Shown here piece after piece: positions 6,809 to 10,810 of a DNA stretch of 64,000 nt. Below the pieces are notes generated by a model. The model saw only the letters and a list, made by a program, of their open reading frames with translations, did not search any database and was not told the origin of the DNA. The stretch's first letter is position 1, and every line of letters starts with the position of its first letter. The stretch is from Pelagibacterales bacterium SAG-MED22. Lineage in GTDB: Bacteria > Pseudomonadota > Alphaproteobacteria > Pelagibacterales > Pelagibacteraceae. A program made the translations under genes and the position numbers. The stretch lies in NCBI GenBank assembly GCA_014653985.1, contig JACWDT010000001.1, positions 124,001 through 188,000 on the forward strand, read 5' to 3'.

Positions 6809-7267
6809 ATGGAATCGTTAAAAAATTGGATGATAGAAGCAGCAAATATTTTATTTGATGATAGTAAAAATGATTTGAGGGCTCTTCCTAAAACAGTGAG
6901 GTTACAAATTCTTTTAGTCTTAAGTTTTATTTGGACCACTGTTTTTAGTTTATATGTTTTTTCATATACAACTTTTGCATTTGGTTGGGCAGGACTATTT
7001 ATAGCTCATATTGGTTTGATTTTTGCAGTGTATATGACATTCAAGCATTTTCACAGAGCTGAAGAAAGTTCTGCTAGTGTGTTTAAAACGAAAAATTTTG
7101 ACCCTTTTAAAATAATGGTAATTGTTTTTGTCATAGTTTTTATATTTGTCTTTTCAAAAGGAATTGAAGTTCTAACTAGTCCAAACCCATATTCTTACTC
7201 TATTCCTTATGATGGTTCTTCAAAATCAGTATTTGAAAAATGGCTACCATTTAGTAAAGATAAGTAA
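6809..7267 (+). CDS. Conserved hypothetical membrane protein
   Basis: I do not recognise a family. The 152-residue protein has a soluble N-terminal 30 residues, then three hydrophobic segments (about residues 33-52, 56-77 and 102-120), and a C-terminal tail ending VFEKWLPFSKDK. A cluster of His residues (HFHRAEE) follows the second helix. Its last base is the first base of the PsiE-family gene, so the two are translationally coupled and may form one membrane unit. A 7-bp AT-rich inverted repeat (6790-6796 with 6802-6808) ends immediately before the ATG. Confidence 0.6.
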   Translation: MESLKNWMIEAANILFDDSKNDLRALPKTVRLQILLVLSFIWTTVFSLYVFSYTTFAFGWAGLFIAHIGLIFAVYMTFKHFHRAEESSASVFKTKNFDPFKIMVIVFVIVFIFVFSKGIEVLTSPNPYSYSIPYDGSSKSVFEKWLPFSKDK

Positions 7268-7647
7268 TGGATAAGATAGCGAAAAATTTACAGTTAGGAT
7301 TAATGTGCATTATTTTAATCAGCACAGTTATTGCTGTTGGTATTGAGATTTCAAATATGTTTTTGAACCAATCAGTTACATTAGCTGATTTGCTTTTAAT
7401 GTTTCTATATTTAGAAGTACTTGCAATGGTCAGAGTTTTTTGGAATCAACAATCTATAAGTATTACCTTACCACTTCTTATTGCAATAACAGCTCTTGCT
7501 CGATTTATTATTCTTCAGGGAAAAGAAATGGATCCTACGGCTCTTGTTTATGAGGCAGTTGCTATTCTGTTAATCGCTGGAGCAATTGTTGTTCTAAGAT
7601 TAAGACATAGTGACAAACTAGGTCTAAAGAAAAAAAAATCTAGGTAA
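7267..7647 (+). CDS. PsiE-family (phosphate-starvation-inducible-like) membrane protein
   Basis: A 126-residue protein with four hydrophobic helices and a polybasic tail (LKKKKSR), matching the PsiE family. Its pattern LADLLLMFLYLEVLAMVRVFW and ALARFIILQ is typical. In E. coli psiE belongs to the Pho regulon, but function is undefined and no Pho box was recognised here. Starts on the last base of the preceding gene's stop codon (TAATG). The family call is good; any role in phosphate stress is only inferred from the name. Confidence 0.8.
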   Translation: MDKIAKNLQLGLMCIILISTVIAVGIEISNMFLNQSVTLADLLLMFLYLEVLAMVRVFWNQQSISITLPLLIAITALARFIILQGKEMDPTALVYEAVAILLIAGAIVVLRLRHSDKLGLKKKKSR

Positions 7648-7654
7648 TTTAAAT

Positions 7655-8794
7655 ATGTTATTTGAGGCTTCGAGGGCGAAAGCCATTGAAAAACTAAATC
7701 ATTTTATTGAAAATAATTTAACAGATTACTCTAAGTTAAGAAATTTTGATCTTGGTCCAGAGGGTAGATCTAATATCTCATGCTTATCACCTTACATTAC
7801 ACACGGGATAGTAAGTGAAAAAGAAATAATAAAAAAATCTCTTGATAAATTTTCTTTCGCTAAAAATGAAAAGTTTATCCAAGAAGTTCTTTGGCGTACT
7901 TATTGGAAAGGCTGGCTAGAACTAAGACCAAATGTATGGGATGATTATTTAATAGAGCTAAAAAAAATAAGAGAAGATTTCAAAAATAACAAAGAATATT
8001 TAAATGCAATCGAAGGAAAAACAAATATTGAATGCTTCAATTACTGGGTAAATGAACTCAAAGAAAACAACTATCTTCACAACCATACAAGAATGTGGTT
8101 TGCGAGTATTTGGATTTTCACTCTAGAATTACCTTGGCAACTTGGTGCTGAATTTTTCATGCAACATCTGTATGACGGAGATGCTGCATCTAACACCCTT
8201 GGTTGGAGATGGGTAGCTGGAATTCAAACACAAGGTAAGCATTACCTGGCAAGTGAGTGGAATATAAAAAAATTTACCAATAACAGGTTTCAAAACATCA
8301 AATTAAATGAGAACGCTCCTCCAAAAATTTCAGAAAAATCTTACTCTATAATTAAACAAGATTTCAATAACACAGAGGATTTAGCAGATAAAAATCTTGT
8401 AATTTTTGATAACAATCTCTCATTTGAATTCACTGATTTTAAGGAAAATAATTTTAAAAAAATTTATATAATTTCTAGGAAAAATGAAGATAGATCTATC
8501 AAGCTCAGTGAAAAGTCAGTGAATTTTAAGTCTCTTTTAATAAATGACCAAAAACAAAGATTAAAAGATAATTCTATTGATTGTGAGATTATTGATATTA
8601 GTGAAATTAAAAATATTGAAAATTGTTGTGGACTATATCCAACTGTTGGTGAAAATTTAGATTATTTAAATTTAAATAATATTAAATTAAATTTTTTATA
8701 CAGAAATCTTGATCAATTTTCTTGGCAATATTGCAACAAAGGTTTTTTTAATTTTAAAAATTATATTCCAAAAATAATATCAAGCTTTAATTAA
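7655..8794 (+). CDS. Photolyase/cryptochrome-type FAD-binding protein with the flavin domain first
   Basis: Residues about 1-215 match the FAD-binding domain of DNA photolyases: NISCLSPYITHGIVS near residue 41, EVLWRTYWKGWLE at about 81-93, NYLHNHTRMWFASIWIF, and the flavin-binding segment DGDAASNTLGWRWVAGIQT near residue 175. The usual N-terminal Rossmann-like antenna domain is absent. Instead about 150 residues follow with alternating strands and helices (for example LADKNLVIFDNN and FKKIYIISRK). The order is thus reversed relative to ordinary photolyases. It may repair UV lesions, sense light or do neither; a single-domain loss with an unrelated tail is the alternative to a true permutation. 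Confidence 0.82.
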   Translation: MLFEASRAKAIEKLNHFIENNLTDYSKLRNFDLGPEGRSNISCLSPYITHGIVSEKEIIKKSLDKFSFAKNEKFIQEVLWRTYWKGWLELRPNVWDDYLIELKKIREDFKNNKEYLNAIEGKTNIECFNYWVNELKENNYLHNHTRMWFASIWIFTLELPWQLGAEFFMQHLYDGDAASNTLGWRWVAGIQTQGKHYLASEWNIKKFTNNRFQNIKLNENAPPKISEKSYSIIKQDFNNTEDLADKNLVIFDNNLSFEFTDFKENNFKKIYIISRKNEDRSIKLSEKSVNFKSLLINDQKQRLKDNSIDCEIIDISEIKNIENCCGLYPTVGENLDYLNLNNIKLNFLYRNLDQFSWQYCNKGFFNFKNYIPKIISSFN

Positions 8795-9188: not shown

Positions 9189-9320
9189 TTAAATTTTTTT
9201 ATTAGAACACCTTTTTGAACAGTATTTGACTTTTTCCCAGTTTAACTTCCATTTTTTTCTCCATTTAAAGGGTCTTTGGCAAACTAAACAAATTTTAGAC
9301 GGCAGATTTTCTTTTCTCAC
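9189..9320 (-). CDS. DUF2256 family small zinc-ribbon-like protein
   Basis: A 43-residue protein, easily missed by size cut-offs. It has ENLPSKICLVCQRPFKWRKK followed by a tryptophan-bearing stretch and VKYCSKRC, giving two Cys pairs (CxxC and CSKRC) as in DUF2256. The GTG start overlaps the TAG stop of the photolyase-related gene by one base (TAGTG), so translation is almost certainly coupled. From general knowledge, DUF2256 genes are often found beside cryptochrome/photolyase genes; the sequence shows that pairing here. Probable metal-binding accessory factor, function unproven. Confidence 0.85.
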   Translation of the reverse strand: MRKENLPSKICLVCQRPFKWRKKWKLNWEKVKYCSKRCSNKKI

Positions 9321-10810
9321 TATGCAGTATTTTGTTTAATGAATTTTTCAGCTTCAGATAAAATTAATTTTTTTCTATCTGTTTTCATTTTATCAAATAT
9401 CCTAACCATCATAGATAATCGCGGATTTTTAAGAAAGAATTTTCTGTTTCTATCTATAAATCTCCAATAAAGACCATCCATTGTATTACACCACTCACCT
9501 TTTTTAAAATCCATCATTTTCATAAAATATGCCGATCCACATATATAAGGTTTGGTTGCAAAAATTCCTCCATCACTAAACAGCCCCATCCCATAAACAT
9601 TTGGAACCATTACCCAATCAGATGAGTCTACAAACATTTCCATAAACCATTTATAAACAATTGTAGGTTTGATTTCACACAGGTTCATAATATTTGATAA
9701 AATCATTAATCTCTCAATATGATGCGACCAACCATGATCAACAGCATTTTTAATTGCATAATCTAATGGTGGAAGACCTGTATTTCCTTCGTACCAAGAG
9801 TTTTTCATTTTTCTATTTTGTTTAAAAAAATTTCCAGTTTCCATTTCTTTTGAATAACCTTGGTAAACTCCTCGCATGAATTCTCTCCAACCAATTACCT
9901 GACGTATATAACCCTCAAGAGAATTCATTCTGATTTTATTTTTTTTGTGAAACTCTAAAACTTTTTGAACTATAAATTCTGGCGTTATTAATCCAAGATT
10001 GATATAGGGACTTAGAGCACTGTGAAAAAGAATATGATCTTTTTGATCTACAGCATCTTCATAGTCACCAAATAAATTTGATTTCTCTTTAATAAAAAAA
10101 TTCAAAAGTTTAACAACATCTTCATATTCTGTTGCAAACCAAAAATTATCTGTGCTACCTGGATGGTCTTTGAACAATTTTTCAATAATAGGTTTTAATT
10201 TTTTTGTATGATTTGTTTCATTAATTTTAGGAAATTTAGGTATTGAAATATCTTTGGGTAATTTATTTCTATTGTCTTCGTCAAAACTCCACTTACCACC
10301 TAAAGGGTTGCCGTCAGATCCCATTAATATTCCAGATTTTTTTCTTACCTCTTTATAGAAGGTTGACATAAACGGTTTTTTTGAGTTTCCCAAATATTTT
10401 TTAAATTCTTCACGAGAATTTAAAAACATTGGCGTTTGTATGATGTTCCAATCAATCTTTTCCTTTTTAAAAAAAATGGAAATCTTTTGTTCAAAGGGTT
10501 TATCTTCTATCTCAAAGCTAGAAACTTCTTTGATTTTTTTTTGGGTAATAATTTTTTTTAATTTTTTTAAATAATCTTCACTAAATTCTTTGTCTTCAAT
10601 TTTTGAATAATCTAATTTAAATTTATTTTTTTTAAGACTATCTGCATAGGACCGCATAGAGGACAGGAACAATAGAATTTTTTGTTTATGATGTTTTTCA
10701 TAGGTGCATAAACCTTTGTCTTCTGCCATAAAAAACGTATGGTCTTTTTTGAAGCGGTCAATGTATTTTGTTGGAAATAATTGATTACCGAGTATAAAAA
10801 ATAACTTCAT
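9320..10810 (-). CDS. Cryptochrome/deoxyribodipyrimidine photolyase-related protein (PF04244-type)
   Basis: A 496-residue flavoprotein of the prokaryotic photolyase-related (FeS-BCP-like) family. The N terminus KLFFILGNQLFP and FMAEDKGLCTYEKHH is the antenna domain; the C-terminal half has GYIRQVIGWREFMRGVY (about residues 305-321), HGWSHHIERLMILSNIMN and DWVMVPNVYGMGLFSDGG. These match enzymes that repair (6-4) photoproducts. The cluster Cys pair expected after the KPY segment is not seen; D-F-K-K occupies that place (434-437) and only isolated Cys378, Cys424 and Cys441 are present. An iron-sulfur cluster may therefore be absent. Divergent from the SDR gene. Confidence 0.9.
   Translation of the reverse strand: MKLFFILGNQLFPTKYIDRFKKDHTFFMAEDKGLCTYEKHHKQKILLFLSSMRSYADSLKKNKFKLDYSKIEDKEFSEDYLKKLKKIITQKKIKEVSSFEIEDKPFEQKISIFFKKEKIDWNIIQTPMFLNSREEFKKYLGNSKKPFMSTFYKEVRKKSGILMGSDGNPLGGKWSFDEDNRNKLPKDISIPKFPKINETNHTKKLKPIIEKLFKDHPGSTDNFWFATEYEDVVKLLNFFIKEKSNLFGDYEDAVDQKDHILFHSALSPYINLGLITPEFIVQKVLEFHKKNKIRMNSLEGYIRQVIGWREFMRGVYQGYSKEMETGNFFKQNRKMKNSWYEGNTGLPPLDYAIKNAVDHGWSHHIERLMILSNIMNLCEIKPTIVYKWFMEMFVDSSDWVMVPNVYGMGLFSDGGIFATKPYICGSAYFMKMMDFKKGEWCNTMDGLYWRFIDRNRKFFLKNPRLSMMVRIFDKMKTDRKKLILSEAEKFIKQNTA

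Follow-up and report, generated by a model that had tools for sequence, protein, structure and literature searches.

A NewPHL-type photolyase gene of SAR11 and the probable relocation of its shortened antenna-type domain

Background

A 379-aa protein encoded by Pelagibacterales bacterium SAG-MED22 begins with the FAD-binding domain of a photolyase and ends with an alpha/beta domain, which raises the question whether this second domain is the antenna-type domain of canonical photolyases carried at the other end of the protein. The window, i.e. the whole stretch of DNA that was analysed, comprises 64,000 nucleotides of contig JACWDT010000001.1 (positions 124,001 to 188,000), and all coordinates of the SAG-MED22 genes below refer to it. 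The first-pass annotation had placed the FAD domain at residues 1-215 with an alpha/beta region after about residue 230, had offered either a circular permutation or loss of the antenna domain with gain of a new C-terminal one, and had regarded both as an unusual architecture.

Photolyases with the FAD domain first have been described previously. According to passages in PMC9426592, Prochlorococcus Phr7 consists of an N-terminal FAD domain and a C-terminal Z-domain, has no Fe-S cysteine set and is related to the single-stranded DNA (ssDNA) CPD photolyases of Dinoroseobacter shibae and Methylobacterium mesophilicum (citing Emmerich et al. 2020); the same passages give a reversed domain order for Phr4/Phr5 and Phr6. 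‘NewPHLs or SPLs’ are treated as one class with inverted domain topology in a passage of PMC13274461. SPL denotes short photolyase-like (Xu et al. 2021, as cited in a passage of PMC9649867), and SPLs are described there as being without an antenna domain. They are mentioned only in passing in the relevant parts of PMC9178010 and PMC9498864, and the photolyase passages of PMC3686209 concern Prochlorococcus. Since NewPHL/Phr7 as well as Phr4-5/Phr6 have been published as FAD-first, the architecture is known; it is also common in SAR11 (see below), and its novelty cannot be upheld. No paper in the literature searched, outside of which the original NewPHL paper lies, was found to describe the C-terminal domain of NewPHL as a permuted antenna domain, and the listed titles and abstract openings on SAR11 and photolyase contain nothing on this gene.

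Results and Discussion

Gene and domain order

The features of the locus are as follows.

7655..8794, plus strand: NewPHL-type photolyase gene, 379 aa
7655..8323, plus strand: FAD-binding/catalytic domain, residues 1-223 (Pfam, PDB sequence alignments, VIA-align)
8324..8389, plus strand: linker, residues 224-245, weakly conserved in the 25-member alignment A2, neither helix nor strand predicted (DSSP)
8390..8791, plus strand: C-terminal alpha/beta domain (‘Z-domain’), residues 246-379 (prediction, structure match, profiles)
8711..8770, plus strand: best-conserved C-terminal stretch, D353-P372 (alignment of 25 sequences)
9320..10810, minus strand: photolyase-related gene, 496 aa, PF04244 (DPRP) plus FAD_binding_7 (Pfam)

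The open frame around the ORF at 7655-8794 has 388 codons and extends 9 codons upstream of it, and nothing precedes the FAD domain in the 379-aa protein, of which it forms the N-terminus. Pfam FAD_binding_7 matches residues 74-198 (E 2.6e-16, 60.1 bits, cut-off 27). PF00875 gives no match, and no other Pfam family is listed up to E 10, in a listing whose filters discard most matches above 0.1. The NCBIfam photo-lyase profile PRK10674 is matched by its second half only, residues 2-197 corresponding to profile positions 200-396 of 472. Likewise, residues 204-395 of E. coli photolyase (1dnp) align with residues 7-197 in the PDB sequence alignment. The full model (pLDDT 84.4, pTM 0.86) compares best among solved photolyases with 1iqr (VIA-align Z 15.6, rmsd 2.6, 209 residues aligned), model residues 1-223 lying on 1iqr 173-411 and residues 1-220 on 1dnp 195-455; the FAD domain corresponds to the part of E. 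coli photolyase that starts at about residue 195. The domain reported at residues 1-215 is therefore borne out, with a structural match to solved photolyases that reaches residue 223. The match above the FAD_binding_7 cut-off, together with conserved FAD and CPD residues, places the protein in the photolyase/cryptochrome superfamily.

The FAD domain and the CPD-site residues are shared with class I CPD photolyases (E. coli 1dnp, Anacystis 1owl), but class I enzymes have an N-terminal PF00875 antenna domain and a distal Trp. The N-terminal PF00875 domain that marks classes I and III is absent from the 379-aa protein, and no PF00875 photolyase was found in the source genome, which is 96.6% complete.

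Distribution in SAR11 and beyond

The FAD-first layout is the rule in SAR11 and recurs across Alphaproteobacteria as one well-supported clade. A FAD-first match (E<=1e-30) occurs in 136 of 197 genomes of the order, and in 125 of the 149 that are at least 90% complete; at least two copies, in G081 and G199, are broken. With matches in so many genomes the gene is neither a chance occurrence nor an assembly fault, and homologues collected to gauge the spread of the layout find it common. A PF00875 photolyase is present in 153 of the 197 genomes, and 18 of the 20 listed among the 44 PF00875-free genomes carry the FAD-first protein. When the source genome and 60 relatives are considered, 50 of the 61 match at E<=0.001, in many cases through canonical photolyases; a full-length copy is found in 25, 23 from the same genus (the source genome included) and two from another family of the order.

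In a sample of the phylum 104 of 398 genomes match at E<=1e-15, with a gap between 21 non-SAR11 proteins at E 1e-62 to 1e-92 and the rest at E 1e-33 or weaker. The 21 proteins lie in open frames of 379-514 codons, and their match starts within about 60 codons of the frame start in 19 and after about 100 codons in two (L144 and L149). In a second sample, drawn from the class, a member at E<=1e-60 is present in 17 of 240 genomes, three of them from the same family as the source. In a scan of named genomes, the best 80 of at least 594 matching stretches are all from Pelagibacter, Pelagibacteraceae or Pelagibacterales (73-92% identity). No phage-borne NewPHL was found among 50,697 phage records, 10 of which match, none covering 80% of the query; 7 pattern matches among viral contigs included no relative and no NewPHL. 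The broken copies, with in-frame stops or a frame break, are located at G199:C40:28046-29184 and G081:C7:27154-28291, and a member with one in-frame stop is seen in the class-sample genome G763.

Family alignment and tree

Characterised NewPHL proteins include those of D. shibae, M. mesophilicum, E. litoralis and R. centenum. The NewPHL assignment made here is by layout, by the clade with proteins of Ruegeria, Peteryoungia and Asticcacaulis, and by the published description of the characterised members. With NewPHL/Phr7 the 379-aa protein shares the FAD domain in front, a short C-terminal ‘Z-domain’, the lack of an Fe-S cysteine set and a marine and alphaproteobacterial occurrence; it is known from sequence and is likened to them by their published description.

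Members of alignment A2 are 32-71% identical to the 379-aa protein, those from outside SAR11 32-39%, and relatives in an 11-row alignment 52-83%. In a first FAD-domain tree, used for the NewPHL clade only, from which L184 and L188 (same genomes as L154 and L161) and L219 and L226 (motif not found) were excluded, all 39 family rows share one side of a 99/99 branch. A second tree of 61 rows, for which 14 canonical, 6 NewPHL and one DPRP row were dropped for speed and because of long branches, has a 100/100 branch that parts 22 canonical photolyase rows from 33 NewPHL rows (100/99) and 6 SPL-labelled rows (92/64), a label given by layout and cysteines. Proteins of Ruegeria, Peteryoungia and Asticcacaulis are on the NewPHL side, and the 379-aa protein groups with the SAR11 rows.

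Residues of the FAD domain and predicted activity

Residue positions were mapped through the alignment with E. coli photolyase and counted over 25 family members. Fourteen positions (E. coli numbers Y222, R226, E274, W277, R278, N341, R344, M345, W359, D372, D374, N378, W382 and W384) are identical in 25/25, and presumably serve FAD binding, CPD binding or electron transfer. R342 of E. coli is replaced by His in 24 members and W338 by Tyr in 21, the other 4 keeping Trp; at the position of the distal triad Trp (W306), which is F109 here, no member has Trp. No cysteine is invariant or nearly so among the 25 members, which are without the Fe-S cysteine set.

Repair activity, pocket closing and the FAD cofactor are predicted, and the presumed preference for ssDNA is adopted from characterised members. 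FAD would sit in the N-terminal helical domain and be photoreduced via tryptophans, with W184 (E. coli W382), W161 (W359) and a third donor supplying electrons. Reduced FAD would then pass an electron to a cyclobutane pyrimidine dimer in the FAD pocket, where E77, W80, N143, M147 and W186 would grip it, and the dimer would be split in blue/UVA light. The C-terminal alpha/beta domain probably shields or closes this pocket, and CPDs in ssDNA are the likely substrate.

Structure and profiles of the C-terminal domain

The C-terminal domain is conserved across the family, best in D353-P372, where 24 of 25 aligned sequences share each of W357, G363 and F365, and 23 share K368. Residues 229-379, predicted alone from the 25-row alignment, reach pLDDT 92.6 with alternating strands and helices (E-E-H-E-H-E-H-E-H-H-H), in agreement with the alpha/beta region that had been read from the sequence. 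Disorder or lack of a Rossmann-like fold, which the first-pass annotation had held to exclude a permutation, is not seen: the fold is predicted to be Rossmann-like. A comparison with photolyase N-terminal domains had also been proposed, and was carried out on this model by VIA-align against the 1000 PDB chains ranked highest by Foldseek. The ten best entries are all photolyases or cryptochromes, matched via the N-terminal domain (chain residues about 1-165) with Z 7.3-8.9 over 101-129 residues; they represent five distinct proteins, all of PhrB/(6-4)/CryB type. The best unrelated entry, a universal stress protein (USP), has Z 7.0, and CRY2 and class II photolyases have Z 6.9 and lower. Photolyase N-terminal domains are thus the closest structural neighbours, at Z values below 9, which the tool itself notes as modest. 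No Foldseek E-value for a photolyase reaches significance (0.038 for the best one, with a FabG ranked first). With modest Z values and no significant Foldseek E-value, structure comparison alone would leave homology of the modelled domain undecided.

Profile comparisons add to this. By hhalign, 8 canonical N-domains give a probability of 56% against the C-domain profile, and 36 C-domains against 38 canonical N-domains give 83.2% (score 39.2, 116 collinear columns); the deep profile of 36 rows leaves out L187, which was wrongly cut, and L194, in which the motif was not found. As a positive control the C-domain family scores 207 against itself. The score reaches at most 18.1 and the probability at most 1.5% in 100 column-shuffled copies, and a reversed copy scores 12.9. 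The C-domain profile scores 21.9 against USP, 18.5 against a shikimate-DH-containing family and at best 25.6 (6.7%, aldo/keto reductase) against nine unrelated neighbourhood families, the decoy profiles being shallower (Neff 1-4 vs 6). With the roles exchanged, the canonical N-domain as query scores 31.3 (48%) against the C-domain, where USP scores 24.0 and the shikimate-DH set 16.4. The canonical N-domain profile scores 31.2 (31%) against USP, equal to its C-domain score, so that with the roles exchanged the signal does not go beyond what a broader relationship of folds would give.

Single sequences give a weak picture. Every probability is under 10% against 178 sequences (17 photolyase-like ORFs having been removed from 157 decoys); 24 of 38 canonical photolyases rank within the top 44, and several matches (L203, L207, L211, L213, L222) fall outside the N-domain. 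The SAR11-only C-domain profile has no link to canonical N-domains (0.12%). SAR11 C-domains match those of other Alphaproteobacteria at 97%, and as judged by these profiles the link to the canonical N-domain is one that runs through other Alphaproteobacteria. FeS-BCP/PhrB-type (6-4) photolyases, with a PF04244 N-domain, provide the top structural matches of the C-domain, and their domains are in canonical order. The profile built for the PhrB-type (DPRP) family of the neighbouring gene nonetheless shows no link to the C-domain (score 10.1, 0.05%). Two Persicobacter C-terminal regions showed no link to any of three profiles (under 1%).

Deinococcus and SPL-type relatives

Relatives on Deinococcus plasmids have the FAD domain followed by a photolyase-type domain. 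Strain AJ005 and D. wulumuqiensis have the two domains in a single protein (456 and 472 aa). On a plasmid of Deinococcus sp. QL22 (L170:1857-3148) they are split over two ORFs that overlap by 4 bases, the second, downstream of the FAD-domain ORF, being a photolyase-type ORF of 173 aa. The QL22 arrangement resembles Synechococcus phr4/phr5. Two of the three Deinococcus C-domains match PF00875 at E 7e-4 and 2e-4, below the cut-off, and against canonical N-domains the Deinococcus C-domains give 96.5% by hhalign. Compared directly, the NewPHL C-domain profile and the three Deinococcus C-domains give 34%, and the separate QL22 ORF, which had remained among the decoys, ranks first of the 178 single sequences against the NewPHL C-domain profile, at 9% only. 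On this sequence evidence the Deinococcus relatives, split or fused, would act as a bridge between the NewPHL C-domain and the canonical N-domain.

SPL, Phr4-Phr5 and Phr6 are likewise FAD-first, with a photolyase-type domain behind, fused or as the next ORF; the SPL-labelled Deinococcus proteins differ by the cysteines clustered behind their FAD domain, and the tree places them as a sister group. An alphaproteobacterial SPL-type ORF (L163/L227, genome G242) ends in a cluster of cysteines a short way past its FAD domain. In the control genome of Deinobacterium chartae a PF00875 match is listed and a PF03441 match is not.

Alternative explanations

Photolyase-like proteins often become sensors, and a cryptochrome-like light sensor or regulator might be supposed here as well, given that the classical electron chain lacks its distal Trp. 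Such a role is improbable: E77, W80, N143, M147 and W186, which we take to be the CPD-pocket positions, are invariant in 25/25 members, N180, presumably facing N5 of FAD, is Asn as in photolyases, and relatives of the same layout are reported as CPD photolyases in passages of PMC9426592. That the gene is a truncated or decaying photolyase which merely lost its N-terminal domain is far less credible still. The whole genome is without a PF00875 match and at least two genomes (G081, G199) carry broken copies, but the gene is intact in most relatives (52-83% identity in the 11-row alignment), forms a family-wide clade in the tree, and has a C-terminal domain that is both conserved and confidently predicted.

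A weightier, though still unlikely, explanation is the second of the two options originally offered, i.e. loss of the antenna domain together with the gain, at the C-terminus, of an alpha/beta domain with a different ancestry. Consistent with this, PF00875 does not detect the C-domain, the SAR11-only and DPRP-family profiles are without a link, Foldseek alone is not significant, and canonical N-domains as query score USP about as high as the C-domain. Against it, the photolyase N-domain scores best by both structure and profile when the search starts from the C-domain, collinear over the strands, while USP, the shikimate-DH set and the nine neighbour families score lower; the QL22 ORF that follows a FAD ORF also tops the 178 single sequences, if only at 9%. 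Of the two options, permutation or relocation is the better supported, by fold, N-domain matches and profiles. Homology between the C-terminal domain and the antenna-type domain at the N-terminus of canonical photolyases is probable, on evidence that is good but not decisive. The reading preferred here, with a probability of roughly 0.8, is that the gene encodes a NewPHL of SAR11 that probably acts as a CPD photolyase and carries a relocated, shortened antenna-type domain at its C-terminus. As all FAD-first proteins lie on one side of the 100/100 branch, a single relocation would explain both architectures; it is somewhat favoured that NewPHL and SPL proteins keep the antenna domain at the other end through one such event, possibly via a split-gene stage of the kind exemplified by Deinococcus QL22 and Phr4/Phr5. 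The tree, being unrooted, does not give the direction of the move.

Gene neighbourhood

The PhrB-like gene at 9320-10810 is convergent with the NewPHL-type gene, lies 525 bp past its end and is the only other FAD_binding_7 match in the source genome. Of the 23 genomes of the same genus that carry a full-length copy, 19 have a second match on the same contig within 7 kb, covering query residues within 11-175 in open frames of 497-504 codons (268 in G006); the identification of the second match as the PhrB-like gene is Pfam-based for the source genome alone. This suggests a conserved photorepair neighbourhood around the NewPHL-type gene. Directly upstream, at 6809-7647, are two small unrelated ORFs of 152 aa (no Pfam match over the cut-off) and 126 aa (PsiE family).

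Conclusions

SAR11 is among the most abundant bacterial groups of sunlit seawater. Because the source genome has only two FAD_binding_7 matches and no PF00875 match, much of its CPD repair may fall to the FAD-first photolyase. The FAD-first architecture itself is already known, and what is added here is evidence, short of decisive, that the moved domain is a homologue of the canonical antenna domain. Such homology bears on which photolyase architecture came first: if the relocation is true, the argument that the FAD-first form is ancestral because it is simpler would lose its basis, and both domains would have been present in the common ancestor.
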